From Lysobacterales bacterium (lineage in GTDB: Bacteria; Pseudomonadota; Gammaproteobacteria; Xanthomonadales; SZUA-36), in assembly GCA_029859645.1 (NCBI GenBank), contig JAOUCS010000012.1, positions 1 through 46,398 on the forward strand: 46,398 bases of DNA, read 5' to 3'. The position numbers and the translations under genes are program-made. The stretch's first letter is position 1, and every line of letters begins with the position of its first letter. The notes below the pieces were generated by a model. The model searched no databases, was not told the origin of the DNA, and was given only the letters and a program-made list of their open reading frames with translations. Below are positions 22,097-43,415 of the stretch, piece by piece.

Positions 22097-22112
22097 TGGC
22101 ATGACTTCTGCA
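22097..22112 (+). promoter_or_regulatory. Sigma-54 promoter of glnA
   Basis: TGGCATGACTTCTGCA has the GG-N10-GC spacing of RpoN promoters. It matches the glnK promoter at 4911 in 15 of 16 positions. It lies 46 bases before the glnA start codon. Confidence 0.8.
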
Positions 22113-22158
22113 TATATATCCTGACCCAATTTGGAACACCACCATAGGAAGCAGAGTA

Positions 22159-23568
22159 ATGAGCACTGAAAAAATTCTGAAAACACTGGAAGAAAAGAAA
22201 TTCAAATTTGTCGACCTCAGGTTTTGTGACACCCTGGGCAAGGAACAGCACGTCAGCCTGCCGATAGGCGCGGTCGATGAAGATTTGTTCGAAGAAGGAA
22301 AAATGTTTGACGGTTCATCCATTTCGGGTTGGAAGGGGATCAATGAGTCCGACATGGTGCTGATGCCGGACCTCTCGACCGCGGTCAAAGACCCCTTCGC
22401 AGAGCATAAGACCATGATCATCCGTTGCGATGTGCTCGAACCGAATACGATGGAAGGCTACAACCGTTGTCCTCGTTCGCTGGCCAAGCGCGCAGAGGCA
22501 TACCTGAAGTCCAGCGGAATTGCAGATACCGCCTTCTTTGGACCTGAACCGGAATTTTTTATTTTCGATGATGTGCGGTTCGACGTTGATATGCACGGCT
22601 GTTCCTACCGCGTCGACTCGGAAGAAGGCGCCTGGAACACCGGTGCTGAATACGAAGGTGGCAACATCGGTCACCGTCCTGGCGTGAAAGGCGGTTACTT
22701 CCCGGTGCCGCCGGTCGACTCTTTGCACGACATCCGTGCCGAGATGTGCCTGATCATGGAAAAGATGGGTATCGAAGTTGAAGTGCACCATCACGAGGTC
22801 GGCACGGCTGGACAGTGTGAGATCGGTACCCGGTTCGCTACGCTCGTGGAGAAAGCCGATGAGTTGCTGACCCTCAAGTACGTGGTGCATAACGTGGCGC
22901 ACGCTGTTGGTAAAACAGCAACATTCATGCCCAAGCCCCTGGTGGGAGACAACGGCTCAGGCATGCACGTGCATCAGTCCATAGCCAAGGACGGAACGAA
23001 CCTGATGACCGGCGACGGTTATGGCGGGCTGTCAGAAACTGCATTCCACTACATTGGGGGCATCTTCAAACACGCCAAGGCCATCAATGCCTTTGCCAAT
23101 GCCTCGACCAACAGCTACAAACGACTGGTGCCGGGGTTCGAAGCTCCCGTCATGCTGGCCTACTCGGCCCGTAACCGATCTGCTTCCTGCCGCATTCCGT
23201 TTGTCAGCAATCCCAAAGCGCGCCGCATTGAAGTGCGTTTTGGTGATCCCGCGGGGAACGGTTACCTGACCTTCGCGGCCATGTTGATGGCCGGGCTGGA
23301 CGGGATCAAGAACAAGATCGATCCGGGCCCGCCGATGGACAAGGACCTCTACGACCTGCCGCCGGAGGAAGAAAAACTGATTCCAACCGTCTGTGCATCA
23401 CTGGACGAGGCGCTGGCGGCACTGGACGAGGACCGGGAGTTCCTGAAGGCTGGTGGTGTATTCGATGATGACCTGATCGATGGATATATCGCGCTTAAAA
23501 TGGAGGAAGTCACCCGGTTCCGGATGAGCACGCACCCGGTCGAGTTCGATATGTATTATTCTTTGTAA
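22159..23568 (+). CDS. glnA: Glutamine synthetase, type I
   Basis: A 469-residue type I-beta glutamine synthetase, the usual length, condensing glutamate and ammonia with ATP. Visible signatures are [16 protein letters not shown], the metal-ligand strand [13 protein letters not shown], the ATP-site region [14 protein letters not shown] and the NRSASCRIP arginine loop. Tyr398, in [11 protein letters not shown], is the adenylylation site used by GlnE. GGAAGCAG precedes ATG 22159. The promoter is sigma-54 type with two NtrC sites. The genes for DUF4124, NtrB and NtrC follow on the same strand. The dodecamer acts in the cytoplasm. Confidence 0.97.
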
Positions 23569-35116: not shown

Positions 35117-36407
35117 AGAAGAAGCCGTCCATTTCCTGGTCGCCTGGAAAAATTTGCCTGCCGTTATCCTGGTGTTCACCCCAGGAAACGTCCAGTTGCT
35201 CCGCGTGTGCATCCGGCTGCTTTTCCAGGAAAGCCTGTATTTGCGCGTTGTTTTCAAGCCTGAGTACCGAACAAGTTGCGTACAGCAGGATACCCCCGGG
35301 TGTCAGTAGAGACCATAGGCGCTGCAGTAACTTCGCCTGCAGGGTTACCGCCTCCTGCACCTGGTCCCTTGATCTGAGCCACTTGATTTCGGGGTGCCGG
35401 CGGATCACACCGGTAGCGGTGCAGGGTGCATCCAGCAGAATACGGTCAAAGAAGGACCCATCCCACCACTCGTTCGTGTCGGCCGCATCCGCGGTCACCA
35501 GCCTTTGATTCTGTGTATCCCGCAGTTGCAGACGGTCCATATTTTCTTCAACCTGGGTGAGCCGCGACTGGCTTCGATCGATCACTGTCAGTTTCACGCC
35601 GGGTTCCTTTTCCAGGATGTGGCAGGTTTTGCCACCCGGTGCGGCGCATGCATCCAGCACGGCATGGTGACCCTGGATGTCCAGCAAACCTGCCGCCAAC
35701 TGGGCAGCAGGGTCCTGTACTGAAAACCGCCCTTTTTCGAATCCGGGGAGCCGGGTCACGGCAGCCGCCGGGCTTACCTTGACGGCATCTTCCAGCGTAA
35801 CGTGGCGATCGACGTCGAAGCCTGCAGCCGAAAGATCATTTATCGTTTCAGTGGCATCGCAGCGCCGGTTCAGCCTCAACCACAAGGCGCCTGGCTGTTG
35901 ATTGGCGCGCGCTATTTGTTGCCAGTGCTCCGGCCAGTCGTGTTTCAGGGAGTCAAGCAGCCAGCCGGGATGAGCAAAGCGTTCTTCGCGCTGATCCAGC
36001 AGACGGATCAGTTCAGTCTTCTCACGCTGAAAACGTCGCAGTACCGCGTTGATGACCGGTACCGCCCAGGCTTTTTTTAACTTCTTCGCACATTCTGCTG
36101 TTGCATGGGTGGCTGCGTGATCTGCGCCGCCGTCCTGCCACAACTGGTAAAGACCAATCAGGATGAGACGTTGGATATCCCGGTCTTTGCGGCGCAGAGG
36201 CTTGCGCAACAATTTGCCGGAGAGCCACTCCAATGCAGTCAGCCAGCGTAATACACCGTAACTGAGATGCATTGCGAAGGCGCGGTCTCTGGCGCTTTGC
36301 ACGCGGCTGTCGCTGTCCGCTTCGGCCAGGCTCTTATGGCTATCCAGCACTTCTGACAGGATGGCCAGCGTAGCCAGTCTCGCATTATCGAAAGATGACT
36401 TGCTCAA
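35091..36407 (-). CDS. rsmB: 16S rRNA (cytosine-967-C5)-methyltransferase RsmB
   Basis: 438 residues. The N-terminal NusB-like domain (about 1-140, for example DRAFAMHLSYGVLRWL) is followed by a Rossmann methyltransferase domain. The SAM site is VLDACAAPGGKTCHIL near residue 250. The catalytic cysteines lie in LDAPCTATGVIRRHPEIKW and LLYATCSV. It methylates C967 of 16S rRNA. Length matches the family. It overlaps fmt by four bases upstream (ATGA) and DUF4390 by 26 bases downstream. The call is secure. Confidence 0.95.
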   Translation of the reverse strand: MSKSSFDNARLATLAILSEVLDSHKSLAEADSDSRVQSARDRAFAMHLSYGVLRWLTALEWLSGKLLRKPLRRKDRDIQRLILIGLYQLWQDGGADHAATHATAECAKKLKKAWAVPVINAVLRRFQREKTELIRLLDQREERFAHPGWLLDSLKHDWPEHWQQIARANQQPGALWLRLNRRCDATETINDLSAAGFDVDRHVTLEDAVKVSPAAAVTRLPGFEKGRFSVQDPAAQLAAGLLDIQGHHAVLDACAAPGGKTCHILEKEPGVKLTVIDRSQSRLTQVEENMDRLQLRDTQNQRLVTADAADTNEWWDGSFFDRILLDAPCTATGVIRRHPEIKWLRSRDQVQEAVTLQAKLLQRLWSLLTPGGILLYATCSVLRLENNAQIQAFLEKQPDAHAEQLDVSWGEHQDNGRQIFPGDQEMDGFFYARLKKSH

Positions 36408-37366
36408 CTCACGTGACCCAGCCGGTCCGGCAGCGTTACAGCGTTGAGGAAATCGGCTGCGCTCATGCGCCGCTTGCCAGGCCGCTGTAATTCAAGCAGA
36501 CGCAATACGCACTTGCCGGTGGCTATCTGGATGCCTTCGGCGCCTTTCTTCAACACCGTGCCGGGTGCACATTGATGGGTTTCTTCCATGATTTCAGCCT
36601 TCCAGATTCGGGTTCTTTCCGCTCCCATCATGCACCAGCTGACCGGCCAGGGGTTGAATGCCCTTATCTGGCGTTCCAGCGCAGCAGCGGATGCGGACCA
36701 GTCGATCTGTGCTTCCGCCTTGTCAAGCTTGCGCGCGTAAGTCACGCCCTGTTTTGGCTGTGGCGTTGTGGGCAGGGATTGTCCGCGGGCCAGCGCTCGA
36801 ACGCATTGCAACAGCGTGGTGGCCCCCAATTCAGCCAGTTTGTCATGCAGGCTGCCGCCGCTCTCATCATCCGCCAGTGGAATACGCTCACACTTCAATA
36901 ACGCCCCGGTGTCCAGTCCTTCGTCCATTTGCATGATGCAAACGCCCGATTCTGGATCTCCAGCCTCGATCGCGCGTTGCACGGGCGCGGCGCCCCGCCA
37001 GCGCGGCAGCAGCGAAGCGTGGATATTCCAGCAGCCGAACTTTGGGATCTGCAGGATATTTGCCGGCAGGATCAAACCGTAGGCGACAACGACCATCAGG
37101 TCTGCCCGGAACCCTGTTATGAGCCTGGCTGCGTCATTCGATCTGAGCGTTTCAGGCTGAAAAACCTCGATACCATGCTCGAGGGCGGTGCGCTTAACCG
37201 GACTGGCCTGCAGCTTTCTGCCGCGCCCTGCCGGCCGGTCCGGCTGGCTCAGTACCGCCACCGGCGCCAGCCCCTCTTCAATCAGCGCCAGCAGTGGCGG
37301 GACCGAAAAATCAGGCGTTCCCGCGAAAAGAATACGGAGGTCGTGCTGGGTAGCGTAGCGGCTCAG
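36404..37366 (-). CDS. fmt: Methionyl-tRNA formyltransferase, apparent CTG start
   Basis: Formylates initiator Met-tRNA with 10-formyl-tetrahydrofolate. The catalytic segment [20 protein letters not shown] and the substrate loop [12 protein letters not shown] are clear. The conserved opening strand [16 protein letters not shown] is encoded upstream of the first GTG (37261), so the gene must start earlier. Between the def stop and that strand there is no ATG, GTG or TTG in frame. The best candidate is CTG 37366, which overlaps the def stop as CTGA and has GAAGG seven bases upstream. It gives 320 residues, close to the 315 of E. coli. Sequencing error cannot be excluded. Function is secure; the start is inferred. 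Confidence 0.9.
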
Positions 37367-37890
37367 AGCAGGGCCTTCGATGTCTTCTGGACGGCAACTT
37401 TCCTTTGTTTTTCCAGCTTTTTGGTCACCATCCGCTGTTTCAGAGGCGACAGGTAGTCGACGAACAGTTTGCCCTGAAGGTGGTCCATTTCATGCTGCAG
37501 GCAGACCGCATGCATTCCATCCAGATCCTCTTCGAAGAAGCCGCCATCGGCATTTTGCGCGCTGATGCGGATTCTCTCCGCCCTGCTGACTTCCGCGTAA
37601 ATACCCGGAACGGAAAGGCAACCCTCTTCGCAGGTTTCGGTGCCTTCCGACTCGAGGATTTCAGGGTTGATGTAGACGCGGGGGGTGTCCTGGGCCTCAC
37701 TTACATCGAGGATCAGCAGCCGTTTGTGTACATTGACCTGCGTGGCTGCAAGGCCTATCCCGTCTGCCGAATACATGGTTTCAGTCATGTCTTCAATCAG
37801 GCGCTGAAGCTCGTCGTCAAACGCTTCGACCGGTTTCGCTACCGTTCTCAGACGTGGATCAGGGATTTCTAGAATTTCTAATTTGGCCAT
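37363..37890 (-). CDS. def: Peptide deformylase
   Basis: 175 residues, normal for type 1 enzymes. All three motifs are present: GIGLAATQV near residue 45, EGCLSVPG with the metal-binding cysteine near residue 92, and [12 protein letters not shown] with the HExxH-type ligands. It removes the N-formyl group from new proteins, directly complementing the adjacent fmt. The gene begins the def-fmt-rsmB-DUF4390-ntrYX-trkAH cluster and is divergent from the LysM gene, with 139 bases between. The call is secure. Confidence 0.95.
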
Positions 37891-38029
37891 ATGCTTACAC
37901 GCTAAAAAAATAATTTAGATGAACTTTGCTCCGGTATTTATTATGATAGCCAATGGTGGACCCTGTTCGCCAGAGTTAAAACTGACCGCATCTGACAGAT
38001 GGCTGGATGCCTACTAGAGAGGAAGGAAC

Positions 38030-39205
38030 GTGATCAGAACACTCATGCACCTCACCATAGCCGCGATTATGCTTACCGGAGTTGCCCTGGCGCAGGATGT
38101 CGCCGTGCGCTCCGACCACCCTGACCAATACGTGGTGGTCAAAGGCGATACGCTTTGGGATATTTCAGGGAAATTCCTGGATAAACCATGGCAATGGCCT
38201 GCGATTTGGCATGCAAATCCGCAAATTAAAAACCCCCACCTGATCTATCCCGGCGATGTCGTGTCGCTGGTGTATGTTGACGGTGTCCCCCAACTGAGAC
38301 TCAACCGTAACGGTACGAACACGGTCAAGATGTCGCCTTCCATCCGCGTGGTGGATCGGGACGATGCGATCAGTGCGATTCCGTTCGAGTCCATCAAGCC
38401 CTTTGTGCGCGATCTGCGGGTTCTTTCCCCCGCCGAATTCGAAGGATTGCCTTACGTCGTGGCCAACCAGGAGGAACGCCGCACGTCAACCTACAGTGAC
38501 ACTGCCTATGTTCGCGGGCTGAATGCCCAGGTTGGCGAGGAATTCGTCGTGGCACGCCTGATGAACATCTATGACATGGCAGGCAGTCCGCCGGAAATAC
38601 GACGGGTTCTGCCCCAAAGAGGCTGGCGCGTGGTGCCCAACGTCTGGGACCGGGAGCAGCATACATGGAACCAGGTAGCCCCCTGGGACCGCCGGCCCAA
38701 AAACCCGCTGGGTTATGAGATGTTCGAGGTCAGCCGCGTTCGCGTCTCGCAAACCGGGGACATTTCTGTCGTGGATATCATCCGTGACCGGACAGAGGTT
38801 CGCGAGGGAGACTTTATACTTCCCGTCAGCGATATGGGTTACGAAAGTGTTTTCTACCCCAGCGCAATGGACGAGGTTCCGGAAGGCCTGCGGGTCCTGG
38901 CGACATCCGGGCAACGCAGTGGTGTCGGGCTGTACCAGATTGTTTCCATCAATGGTGGAACCAACCAGGGAATCCAGCCGGGTAACGTGTTTTCCGCGTT
39001 CCGGACTGGACAGAAGATCGACGACCGTGTCGGTTTCCGCGAAGGAAGTTTTTCCACGGAAGCCAACGTGCGATTGCCTGATACCTATGATGGCGTTGTC
39101 ATGGTGTTCCGGACTTTCGAAGATATCAGTTATGGGATGGTCATGGGTGGTTCGCGGGTGGTCGTCGAATTCGACACCCTTCGGCATCCGGACGAACGAA
39201 TGTAA
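38030..39205 (+). CDS. Secreted LysM-domain protein
   Basis: 391 residues. A signal peptide ends GVALAQ, followed by one LysM domain at about residues 35-85 (VVKGDTLWDISGKFLDKP and HLIYPGDVVSL), which binds peptidoglycan. The remaining 300 residues have beta-rich repeats without a recognisable enzyme motif. This protein lies upstream of dprA in many gammaproteobacteria. AGAGAGGAAGG precedes GTG 38030, a strong site. It is divergent from def. It probably acts in the cell envelope; its precise function is unknown. Confidence 0.8.
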   Translation: MIRTLMHLTIAAIMLTGVALAQDVAVRSDHPDQYVVVKGDTLWDISGKFLDKPWQWPAIWHANPQIKNPHLIYPGDVVSLVYVDGVPQLRLNRNGTNTVKMSPSIRVVDRDDAISAIPFESIKPFVRDLRVLSPAEFEGLPYVVANQEERRTSTYSDTAYVRGLNAQVGEEFVVARLMNIYDMAGSPPEIRRVLPQRGWRVVPNVWDREQHTWNQVAPWDRRPKNPLGYEMFEVSRVRVSQTGDISVVDIIRDRTEVREGDFILPVSDMGYESVFYPSAMDEVPEGLRVLATSGQRSGVGLYQIVSINGGTNQGIQPGNVFSAFRTGQKIDDRVGFREGSFSTEANVRLPDTYDGVVMVFRTFEDISYGMVMGGSRVVVEFDTLRHPDERM

Positions 39206-39233
39206 TTTGAGGCAAGCTGTTTAGCGCGGCAGC

Positions 39234-40400
39234 ATGCCCGCAGACACGGGGTTTGCCGTCAATAATTACAAAGATTGGTTAGTTGCTCTAAGGGCCCCCC
39301 GCCTGGGGGGCTCGCGCCTGGTGCGATTGATGAAACACTTCGATGGCGCCGGAGCCCTGCTTTCTGCCACTCACGGGCAGTTGCGCAAAGCAGGGCTCGA
39401 TGAGGATGCCATCGCGGCCATCAGGAATCCTGACGAACAACTCTTTGCTTCCGATCTTGAATGGCTGGAGCAGGACTCTCACCAGCTGATCAGCTGGCAG
39501 GATGAGCGGTATCCGCCGCTTTTGCGCGATATATCCTCGCCGCCTGCGGCGCTATTTGTCGAAGGTGATCCGGATATCCTCTGGTTGCCGCAGTTAGCGG
39601 TCATCGGCAGTCGAAATCCGACGACTGGTGGATGTGACAATGCCCGGGATTTTGCAGCTGAACTCAGCCGGCAAGGCCTGACGATAACCAGTGGCATGGC
39701 GTCCGGAATCGATTCCGTAGCTCACCAGGCGGCACTGGACAGCGGCAAGCCCACCGTCGCGGTCATGGGCACCGGGCTGGACCGGATTTATCCAGCAAGC
39801 AGCAAAAGCCTGGCGCTGCGGATCCGCAAGGAAGGAGTACTGGTTTCCGAATTGCCGCTTGGCACCGGCGCAAAGCGGTCTCATTTTCCATCCCGAAACC
39901 GCATCATTTCCGGGCTCAGCCTGGGAGTGCTGGTCATCGAGGCCGGCTTGAGAAGCGGCACGCTGATTACTGCCCGGCTTGCAGCAAACCAGGGGCGCGA
40001 TGTCTTTGCACTACCCGGTTCCATTCACAACCCGATGGCCAAGGGTTGTCACCGCCTGATACGTGATGGCGCGAAGCTGGTCGAAGCCGTGGATGAAATC
40101 CTGACTGAACTTGCGCCGATGGCAGGGCAGTTGGCGGGAGAACTAAAAAGGCAGATTGAACTCCAACCGACCGACAGGGTGGCGGTTTCGCTTGATTCTG
40201 GTGGATATGACCCCCAACTGGACGAGGATCCGGATTACCGGGTTCTCTGGACGTGCCTGGGTTATGACCCCAAACCCATTGACACGATTATTGAGCAAAG
40301 TGGATTGACGGCGAGAGCCGTGTCAGCCATGCTGCTCATGCTAGAGCTGAGAGGAAAGGTTGAGGCACATACCGGGGGAGCCTACAGCCGAAAAAAATAA
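39234..40400 (+). CDS. dprA: DNA-processing protein DprA (Smf)
   Basis: 388 residues. The N-terminal SAM-like helical domain is followed by the Rossmann-fold core with VIGSRNPTTGG near residue 123 and the GMASGIDSVAHQAAL helix. FPSRNRIISGLS and EAGLRSGTLITA complete the core, and a C-terminal winged-helix region (about 320-385) follows. DprA loads RecA onto incoming single-stranded DNA during transformation; it also occurs in bacteria not known to be competent. It lies 28 bases after the LysM gene and 10 bases before smg. Confidence 0.93.
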   Translation: MPADTGFAVNNYKDWLVALRAPRLGGSRLVRLMKHFDGAGALLSATHGQLRKAGLDEDAIAAIRNPDEQLFASDLEWLEQDSHQLISWQDERYPPLLRDISSPPAALFVEGDPDILWLPQLAVIGSRNPTTGGCDNARDFAAELSRQGLTITSGMASGIDSVAHQAALDSGKPTVAVMGTGLDRIYPASSKSLALRIRKEGVLVSELPLGTGAKRSHFPSRNRIISGLSLGVLVIEAGLRSGTLITARLAANQGRDVFALPGSIHNPMAKGCHRLIRDGAKLVEAVDEILTELAPMAGQLAGELKRQIELQPTDRVAVSLDSGGYDPQLDEDPDYRVLWTCLGYDPKPIDTIIEQSGLTARAVSAMLLMLELRGKVEAHTGGAYSRKK

Positions 40401-40410
40401 GAGGTTAATA

Positions 40411-40887
40411 ATGAAAGAAAACGTGCTCGACGTGTTGATGTACCTGTTCGAGAACTACTTCTACGATGAACCCGAAACACAACCTGATCGGGCTTCCATG
40501 GAAGAGAACCTGCACGAGGCCGGTTTCAGCAACGGAGAAATCGACAAAGCCTTCAAATGGCTTGATGGCCTGGCAGAACAGCGTTACCAGCCGGACTTCA
40601 AGATGCACACGGATCAGCCCATCCGGATTTTTGTCGATTCTGAAATTAACCGCCTGGACACGGCCTGTCGGGATTTCCTGCTGTTCCTGTCCAATTCCGG
40701 GATTCTGGACGCGCAGCGGCGCGAACTGGTGCTGGATCGCCTGATGGCGCTGGAAAGCGACGAAATCTTGCTGGAGGATGTGAAATGGGTGGTCCTGATG
40801 GTTCTTTTCAACCAACCCGGGCAAGAGGCGAATTACGCATGGATGGAAGATTTGATGTTTGACACGGAGCAAGACTACCGCCATTAA
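40411..40887 (+). CDS. smg: Smg protein (DUF494 family)
   Basis: 158 residues, near the 157 of E. coli Smg. The start MKENVLDVLMYLFENYF and the acidic, helical composition are typical of DUF494. The molecular role is not established, although the gene is nearly always next to dprA in gammaproteobacteria. ATG 40411 has AGAGG upstream; a longer reading from 40360 would begin inside dprA. A 110-base gap with topA follows. Confidence 0.9.
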   Translation: MKENVLDVLMYLFENYFYDEPETQPDRASMEENLHEAGFSNGEIDKAFKWLDGLAEQRYQPDFKMHTDQPIRIFVDSEINRLDTACRDFLLFLSNSGILDAQRRELVLDRLMALESDEILLEDVKWVVLMVLFNQPGQEANYAWMEDLMFDTEQDYRH

Positions 40888-40944
40888 TAAATAAGGACGG
40901 CCTTTTTTCTCGCTGTCTGATGCCAGCATTCCCTCTCGATCGAA

Positions 40945-40997
40945 GCGATAATGATCGCGCAGGGTAGCTTTAATTTTAAATTTGTGAGGATCGCGAT
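40945..40997 (+). promoter_or_regulatory. topA leader with ribosome site and possible hairpin
   Basis: AGGA at 40987-40990 stands seven bases before the ATC taken as the topA start. The leader has a small hairpin GCGAT/ATCGC (40945-40958). ATCGCG at 40954-40959 could also pair with CGCGAT at 40992-40997, next to the start codon. Whether this folds in the cell is untested. Confidence 0.4.
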
Positions 40998-43415
40998 ATC
41001 AATCTTCTCATTGTAGAATCGCCGGCAAAGGCGGCAACCATCAACCGTTATCTCGGCAAGGATTTCACGGTATTGGCCTCGTATGGACATGTCAGGGACC
41101 TGCCTTCGAAAGACGGTGCGGTGGACCCCGATAATGACTTCGCCATGACCTATGAGCTGAATGAAGACAGCGAAAAGCATGTCAGGGCTATTGTCCGGGC
41201 TGCGAAGAAGGCGGATGCAATCTACCTCGCAACTGACCTTGATCGCGAGGGTGAAGCCATTTCGTGGCATATCTACGAGATCCTGCGCGAACAAGGCCTG
41301 GCGGAAACCAAGACTTTTTACCGGGTGGAGTTTTCAGAAATCACCCGGAAAGCGATCCAGGATGCCGTGGACAACCCACGGGAGCTGTCAATGGATCTGG
41401 TGAACGCACAGCAGGCGCGTCGTGCGTTGGACCACCTGGTTGGTTTCAACCTGTCGCCACTGCTCTGGAAAAAGATCAAGACAGGCCTCTCCGCCGGGCG
41501 GGTGCAAAGTCCTGCCCTGCGCATGATCGTCGAGCGGGAGCGCGAGATAGAGGCGTTCAATCCACAGGAATACTGGTCCATCGAGGCCGACATGAGCCAC
41601 GCTGACCAGGCTTTTGAAGCCCGCCTGGTGCGTATCGAGAACGACCGGCTGAGGCAATTCGATATATCCGATGCGGATCATGCTCACAGAGTACGCGACC
41701 GGCTGATAAAAGCGGCTGACGGCAAGTTGCAGGTGGCCAGGGTCACACGCAAGCAGCGAAAAAGGCGCCCTTCGCCCCCCTTTATCACTTCAACTCTGCA
41801 ACAGGATGCTTCCAGGAAATTACGGTTCACTGCCCAGCGGACCATGAGAACCGCGCAAAACCTCTATGAGGCAGGGCACATCACCTACATGCGCACCGAC
41901 TCCGTGCACCTGTCCAATGATGCCCTTGCTGATTTACGCGCCCAGATCAAGAGTGAATTCGGAGCCGAGTTTGCGCCGGAGAAACCGAATTTCTACAAGA
42001 CCAAGTCAAAGAACGCGCAGGAAGCGCATGAAGCCATCCGCCCTACTTCTGCCGGGCAGACACCTTCGTCCCTCAAGTCAAAACTGACCGAGGACCAGTT
42101 TCGGCTGTATGAGTTGATTTACCGCCGGGCGATGGCGTCCCAGATGGTTCCTGCTCTGATAGACACGGTGGCCGTGGAATTTGACTGTGATTCCGACGCG
42201 ACCTTCCGCGCCAATGGTTCGGTGATCGCATTTCCCGGCTTCCTCCGCGTATACGAAGTGTCATTGCCGAAGGGCAAGGAAGAAAAAGAAAGCAACCTGC
42301 CGGATATGTCCGAAGGCGATATCGTGACGCTCAAGGAAATTCGGGCGGAACAGCACTTTACCGAACCCCCGCCGCGATTTTCGGAAGCCAGCCTGGTCAA
42401 GGCGCTGGAAGACTTCGGAATCGGCCGGCCATCTACCTATGCGAGCATCATCCAGACCCTGGTGCGCAGAAAATACGTGGATCTGGATCGCCGGCGTTTC
42501 ATTCCCACGGATACCGGCAGGGTGGTAGCCCGCTTCCTTGAGAATCATTTCGAACCCTACGTAGACTACGAATTTACCGCGCGAATGGAAGACACGCTGG
42601 ACGAGATTTCACGGGGGGAAATACACTGGATTCCGCCGCTGATGCAATTCTGGAAACCGTTCATTAAGCGAATCAGGGACAAGGAAGAATCGGTCAGCCG
42701 GCAGGAAGCAAAGCTGACCCGCGTGCTCGGAACCGATCCGGCCACGGGTAAGGAAGTGTCCGTCCGGCTCGGCCGATTCGGCCCGCATGCGCAGATCGGC
42801 AGTGTCGAAGACGAGGAAAAACCCAAGTTTGCCGGGCTGCAGCCGGGACACCGGCTGGAAACCATTACGCTGGAAGAGGCGCTCGAATTGTTCAAACTGC
42901 CCAGAGCGCTGGGTTTTACGCCTGATGGCGAGGAAGTCTCAGTGGGCATCGGGCGCTTTGGCCCGTACATCCGCTATGGCAGCAAATTCGTGTCACTGAA
43001 GGATGCGGACCCCCATACGGTGGAATTATCGCATGCGCTGGAACTGGTCGCCGCCAAGAAACAGGCTGACCTGGACCGGATATTGAGGACCTGGGATGAC
43101 TCTGATGTCCAGATCCTGAAGGGTCGATGGGGGCCGTTCATCACCGACGGCAACAAGAACGCGCGTATGCCCAAGGACCGCGAACCGGATTCGATGACGC
43201 TGGAAGAGTGCCTCGCCCTGCTTGAAGCAGCTCCGGACAAGCGCAGCCGCAAGAAAGCTTCCAAGAAGAAAGCCGGCAAGAAAAAGGCGGGCAAGAAGAA
43301 AGCGGCCAGGAAAAAGACGGCCCGGAAGAAAGCGACCAAAAAGAAAGCGACCAGAAAGAAAGCAGCCAGCAAGCGCGCAGACGCCACGGCAGTGGTCTCA
43401 ACATCAGACGGTTAG
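40998..43415 (+). CDS. topA: DNA topoisomerase I, apparent ATC start
   Basis: 805 residues of a type IA topoisomerase that relaxes negative supercoils. The Toprim domain has the glutamate in LLIVESPAKAATINRYLG at the very start and the DxDxE motif in TDLDREGEAI. The catalytic tyrosine is Tyr297 in TYMRTDS. Instead of CxxC zinc fingers, the C-terminus has repeated Topo_C-like units (GRFGPHAQIG, GRFGPYIRYG, GRWGPFITDG) and a lysine-rich tail. The conserved N-terminus lies upstream of the first TTG (41073), and no ATG, GTG or TTG occurs between the preceding stop and it. ATC 40998, seven bases after AGGA, is the best start. Confidence 0.92.
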   Translation: MNLLIVESPAKAATINRYLGKDFTVLASYGHVRDLPSKDGAVDPDNDFAMTYELNEDSEKHVRAIVRAAKKADAIYLATDLDREGEAISWHIYEILREQGLAETKTFYRVEFSEITRKAIQDAVDNPRELSMDLVNAQQARRALDHLVGFNLSPLLWKKIKTGLSAGRVQSPALRMIVEREREIEAFNPQEYWSIEADMSHADQAFEARLVRIENDRLRQFDISDADHAHRVRDRLIKAADGKLQVARVTRKQRKRRPSPPFITSTLQQDASRKLRFTAQRTMRTAQNLYEAGHITYMRTDSVHLSNDALADLRAQIKSEFGAEFAPEKPNFYKTKSKNAQEAHEAIRPTSAGQTPSSLKSKLTEDQFRLYELIYRRAMASQMVPALIDTVAVEFDCDSDATFRANGSVIAFPGFLRVYEVSLPKGKEEKESNLPDMSEGDIVTLKEIRAEQHFTEPPPRFSEASLVKALEDFGIGRPSTYASIIQTLVRRKYVDLDRRRFIPTDTGRVVARFLENHFEPYVDYEFTARMEDTLDEISRGEIHWIPPLMQFWKPFIKRIRDKEESVSRQEAKLTRVLGTDPATGKEVSVRLGRFGPHAQIGSVEDEEKPKFAGLQPGHRLETITLEEALELFKLPRALGFTPDGEEVSVGIGRFGPYIRYGSKFVSLKDADPHTVELSHALELVAAKKQADLDRILRTWDDSDVQILKGRWGPFITDGNKNARMPKDREPDSMTLEECLALLEAAPDKRSRKKASKKKAGKKKAGKKKAARKKTARKKATKKKATRKKAASKRADATAVVSTSDG
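43239..43380 (+). repeat. Lysine-rich low-complexity repeat at the topA 3' end
   Basis: Imperfect repeats of AAGAAAGC-type codons encode about 47 residues of KKA, KKAG and RKKA units, the C-terminal tail of topoisomerase I. Such tails bind DNA non-specifically. The antisense strand reads as phenylalanine/leucine-rich frames that are not genes. Confidence 0.8.

Follow-up and report, generated by a model that had tools for sequence, protein, structure and literature searches.

The topA gene for DNA topoisomerase I in the analyzed stretch of DNA (the window; 46,398 nucleotides of a Lysobacterales contig) very likely initiates at an ATC codon at positions 40998-41000 of the plus strand. Comparison of relatives revealed that an ATH start of this gene (ATH in DNA and AUH in mRNA, where H is A, C or T/U) has a single origin and is retained in 14 genomes of seven genera. 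We assign a probability of about 0.7 to the full statement that topA has an AUH start codon with IF3-limited, selected low expression; within it, the use of the codon in vivo, its sensitivity to IF3, the low level of TopA and the selection for AUH are what we infer.

Identity and start region of topA

The product of topA (40998-43415, plus strand) belongs to the bacterial topoisomerase I family TIGR01051 (topA_bact), scoring 752 bits at a cut-off of 456.4, and aligns to solved topoisomerase I chains, including 6pcm_A. The N-terminal LIVESP segment is kept together with its glutamate, which we take to be the catalytic one. Position 1 of the TIGR01051 profile corresponds to residue 9 of the window protein (P0001), and the ATC codon to residue 7. 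Upstream on the same strand lie dprA and smg (DUF494; 40411-40887), the latter matching NF002897 with 186 bits, just under the cut-off of 191.

The topA frame is bounded by an in-frame stop codon TAA at 40977-40979, as read from the letters, and continues as ATT TGT GAG GAT CGC GAT ATC AAT CTT CTC ATT GTA GAA TCG, with the translation ICEDRD-I-NLLIVESPAKA. The first-pass annotation had claimed that no ATG, GTG or TTG precedes the conserved motif. This is correct for the topA frame, in which the earliest such codon is TTG 41073, located 3' of the catalytic motif; it does not hold out of frame, where an ATG at 40951 and a GTG at 40984 were found by eye. A gene caller restricted to ATG, GTG and TTG would place the start at TTG 41073 at the earliest, thereby cutting off the conserved VESPAKA segment. 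The letters also agree with the annotated distance between the ribosome binding site and the start: the Shine-Dalgarno (SD) core GAGGA occupies 40986-40990, and seven bases lie between AGGA (40987-40990) and ATC (40998-41000).

A short overlapping frame on the plus strand, from ATG 40951 to TAG 41014-41016, crosses the topA start; it contains the GTG at 40984, which, judged by eye, is not present in all relatives. A scan of positions 40700-41200 found neither a plus-strand promoter ahead of topA nor a terminator.

Start codons of topA in related genomes

A protein search identified topA in 38 of 39 genomes of the family, and the start codon was read in all 38. In 14 of them the start codon is ATH: ATC in ten (G000, which is the genome of the window, G002, G003, G006, G007, G009, G015, G016, G018 and G019), ATT in two (G008 and G024) and ATA in two (G001 and G004). 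These genomes represent seven genera (g1, g3, g4, g5, g6, g12 and g13). The remaining 24 topA genes have an ATG two codons upstream of the ATH position, mostly in the context MAKNLLIVESP.

Outside the family, canonical starts prevail. For the order-level outgroups, 13 of 24 genomes were fetched and 12 were readable (the start in G053 was unread), giving 11 ATG and one GTG. Exclusion of eight of the 80 named loci (family members, and L076 that has no N-terminus) left 72 loci outside the family, and all 68 readable ones start with ATG. The ATH records L032, L033 and L037 are the genomes G002, G019 and G009, respectively, and add no cases. In a survey of the order (398 genomes, 390 of them matching), the alignment reaches the ATC codon, among the matches listed, only in the same 14 genomes; this reach describes the alignment edge, the letters not being read there.

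A maximum-likelihood tree was calculated from 50 TopA rows with the start codon left out. A branch with support of 100/100 separates the 14 ATH rows from the others, and a single change of label is required. The third base of the codon shows, by eye, about three changes among C, T and A on this tree, and in none of the 14 genomes has it become G. For scale, G is likewise missing from all 14 genomes at 7 of the 93 four-fold sites in these genes, so the lack of G is unusual, neither rare nor overwhelming.

In several genomes the frame is closed immediately upstream of the ATH codon: an in-frame stop stands one codon before it in G016 (TAA GCC ATC) and G019 (TAA GTT ATC), and three codons before it in G004 (TGA GGT GAA GTC ATA). 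The first-pass annotation had suggested a comparison of close relatives, naming an ATG at this very site, with no conservation of ATC, as the outcome that would speak against its proposal. The ATG-starting relatives fall outside the ATH clade and carry their ATG two codons upstream, and the proposed ATC start is upheld by ATH in 14 genomes of seven genera, by the upstream in-frame stops in some of them and by a strong SD sequence in all 14.

Shine-Dalgarno sequences and leaders

A core of the GAGG/AGGA type begins at positions -13 to -11 in every one of the ATH genomes (14 of 14). In the ATG relatives (24 genomes), a core of this type occurs once within 22 bases of the start, at -18, and in two more genomes at -24. 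The predicted SD pairing has a median of -6.05 kcal/mol in the ATH group (range -7.9 to -5.8) versus -3.25 kcal/mol in the 24 ATG relatives (range -6.4 to 0), with a p value of 2.2e-6 from a statistic that ignores relatedness. One ATG relative, G020, with -6.4 kcal/mol, pairs as strongly as the ATH group. The ATH group shows weaker folding of the mRNA at and near the start (median -11.3 versus -14.0 kcal/mol; p 0.001, relatedness again ignored), and base composition may lie behind this difference.

Alignment folding of ten leaders, in search of a conserved structure, yielded no more than a short hairpin of four pairs that lies clear of the SD sequence (-1.9 kcal/mol). Smaller groups of leaders fold more, with -10.2 for five leaders of genus g1 and -18.1 for three leaders of genus g6. 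A short GCGA...TCGC hairpin upstream of the SD sequence was observed at 40940-40965 in the window and in the leaders of G001-G004, G009, G019 and G024; it finds little support in the alignment folding over ten leaders.

Start codons of other genes

The first-pass annotation had likened the topA start to that of infC, and the comparison is apt because infC of this family also begins with ATC: an ATC after a strong SD sequence was found in all 27 family genomes read (30 loci fetched). For pcnB, the 30 family genomes fetched (loci L177-L206) include 25 in which an ATH codon precedes a conserved His by 11 codons; of the other five genes, two have ATH at -10, one is truncated, one has no ATH and one has ATG. 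In the 20 codons preceding the His, 22 of the 30 genes, the truncated one included, have no canonical codon; eight have one, and in these either start is possible. The AUH start of pcnB is apparently older than that of topA.

The gyrase genes read show no such starts. ATG was found in all 15 gyrB genes read, nine of them from ATH genomes, and in all 19 gyrA genes read, 13 of them from ATH genomes (G003 was unread). Among topA, gyrA and gyrB, only topA is affected. In the IF3 alignment (11 ATH and 16 ATG genomes), no column has a residue that separates the ATH clade from the ATG relatives, which rules out an altered IF3 in the clade.

For a broader comparison of starts, a 257-kb contig of G016 (ATH) was set against one of 507 kb from G014 (ATG). 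In G016, 88 ORFs were matched and 66 of them could be judged; four were flagged as having no canonical start: topA, dprA, fmt and one case deemed spurious. The reverse comparison judged 65 of 102 ORFs of G014 and flagged two, both deemed spurious. The spurious calls (160130-161515 in G016 and both flags in G014) were made by inspection only. In a separate set of flags, ORFs at 37363, 38018 and 43920 were set aside by inspection, a canonical start being close by; a further flagged ORF lies at 22105-23568.

The dprA start was read in 21 of 30 fetched loci (L263-L292). An ACG occupies a fixed place after a G-rich SD sequence in 10 of the 14 ATH genomes, and nine of the 14 have no in-frame canonical codon before a conserved Trp. 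The seven ATG relatives read have six ATG and one TTG, and ACG is also found in two further ATG relatives, of genus g8. Initiation of dprA in the ATH clade thus seems to occur at a non-canonical codon; the window's own copy (39225-40400, plus strand) can use an ATG at 39234. The fmt gene of the window (36404-37489, minus strand) has no canonical start near its N-terminus, and the same is true of G003 and G016, that is, of three of the nine ATH genomes with a match, the other six having one. One candidate start of fmt in the window is a CTG that overlaps the TGA taken as the end of def. In G016, the three genes topA, dprA and fmt are found within 7 kb of one another.

In the window, the stretch 37363-38030 between def (minus strand) and a LysM gene (plus strand) shows unusually high conservation among the ATH genomes. 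It precedes the ATG of def and the GTG of the LysM gene and is perhaps shared promoter DNA.

Alternative explanations of the topA start

The starts of dprA and fmt reflect either a small set of down-tuned genes or a loosened choice of start codons, and they are the strongest argument against a topA-specific reading. Under loosened choice, the ATH codon of topA would be used, having drifted in and been kept by a compensating strong SD sequence, and would have no regulatory role. The counts for dprA and fmt, and the position of both genes near topA in G016, fit this explanation. We nevertheless consider it rather unlikely, since the ATH start arose once with no return to NTG in 14 genomes, the 66 judged genes of G016 yielded only topA, dprA and fmt besides the spurious flag, gyrA and gyrB keep ATG, and the IF3 sequences of the clade are not set apart from those of ATG relatives.

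Much less probable is initiation at another non-canonical codon, either adjacent to ATH or inside the gene at a CTG or a later ATH. One to several open-frame codons do precede ATH, and some genomes have a CTG at codon 3 or 4, or, in G006, a TTG at codon 4. However, the codons before ATH differ between genomes (GCC in G016 and GTT in G019), and the spacing of the SD sequence fits ATH. In the window, ATC is followed by CTT CTC rather than CTG, and therefore CTG is not a general start.

The misreading of ATG as ATC, raised by the first-pass annotation as the main alternative and conceivable for a window taken from a draft assembly of 255 contigs, is refuted by ATH in fourteen separate genomes and by the location of the relatives' ATG at a different codon. 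Synthesis of TopA as a fusion with the smg product via readthrough or frameshift is likewise ruled out: the smg stop and ATH share one frame in 4 of 13 genomes measured, but smg of the window ends with TAATAA (110 bases from its first stop to the ATC), and the smg-topA gap of 27-134 bases takes all three values modulo 3 among the 13 genomes.

Comparison with known systems

To our knowledge, conserved AUH starts have been described for few bacterial genes. The best known is infC, which in E. coli starts with ATT. The pcnB gene of E. coli encodes poly(A) polymerase and starts with AUU, a start for which Binns and Masters 2002 is the cited reference, and its limitation was reportedly demonstrated by experiment. 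Like topA, pcnB has an AUH start in the same family and is a gene outside translation; it differs in being another gene, with limitation in E. coli shown experimentally. The infC gene resembles topA in combining an AUH start with a strong SD sequence and differs in being autoregulated, because it encodes IF3, whereas topA would be a target only.

Published examples, cited here from excerpts of the respective papers, extend this comparison. The infC start is ATC in Streptomyces (PMC5472188) and AUA in Staphylococcus aureus (PMC13009471), and in E. coli no genes besides infC and pcnB are listed with an AUU start in PMC9410913. The infC gene and sigR of Streptomyces, the latter with a GTC start, are described as repressed by IF3 (PMC5472188); sigR is similar to topA in that a conserved non-canonical start is proposed to set the protein level, and differs in that its codon is GTC rather than AUH and its IF3 effect is experimental. 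In S. aureus, conserved AUA and AUU starts with an extended SD sequence are reported to give about 10% of AUG in poor medium (PMC13009471). Two of the genes concerned, ccpN (AUA) and cvfC1 (AUU), share with topA a conserved AUH codon and a strong, extended SD sequence; they are other genes, from Firmicutes, and their starts were mapped by Ribo-Ret and tested with reporters, according to the same excerpt. The Listeria rnhC gene, like topA conserved and involved in nucleic acid metabolism, also has a fixed ATC start; it encodes RNase HIII, and its start was reportedly confirmed by experiment (PMC13068326). The same source ranks Listeria rsbW reporters as ATG > ATA > ATT.

Proposed control of topA expression

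In the proposed mechanism, the AUH codon of topA (AUC here) would be read by the initiator tRNA, and the protein would begin with methionine at 40998. The strong SD core seven bases upstream would bring the 30S subunit to the start. AUH would pair poorly in the P site, and therefore IF3, which destabilises initiation complexes on codons besides AUG, GUG and UUG, would limit initiation on topA. Synthesis of TopA would therefore be slow and would vary with the ratio of IF3 to 30S subunits, a mode of control already suggested for infC and pcnB.

Three features of the infC/pcnB class were found in topA, namely the absence of an in-frame canonical start at the conserved N-terminus, conservation of AUH and a strong SD sequence at proper spacing, and topA seems to have joined this class of AUH-start genes. 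By analogy, topA should be translated at a fraction of the rate of an AUG gene, answering to IF3 relative to 30S. Low, IF3-controlled expression can fairly be inferred from the other bacteria described in the excerpts of PMC5472188 and PMC13009471. In searches of open-access PMC full text, none of the papers listed had a title or displayed abstract describing an AUH start for topA.

After cold shock of E. coli, the ratio of initiation factors to ribosomes increases at least threefold while supercoiling goes up, according to the excerpt of PMC6511841. The same excerpt describes reduced IF3 autorepression at low temperature, an argument against a simple cold switch.

The conserved weak start of topA suggests that the cell holds TopA low and that this level is set at translation initiation. 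A bolder extension, which we regard as speculative and rather doubtful, is that the clade couples DNA supercoiling to how translation initiation stands: topA would belong with infC and pcnB to a set of mRNAs read out by IF3, with dprA (an ACG-like start) and fmt perhaps as further members, and a rise of IF3 over 30S, of the kind reported for E. coli in the cold (PMC6511841), would lower TopA and raise negative supercoiling. If a core topology enzyme does belong to the AUH class, the fidelity of initiation would be tied to chromosome supercoiling in a concrete way that can be tested.
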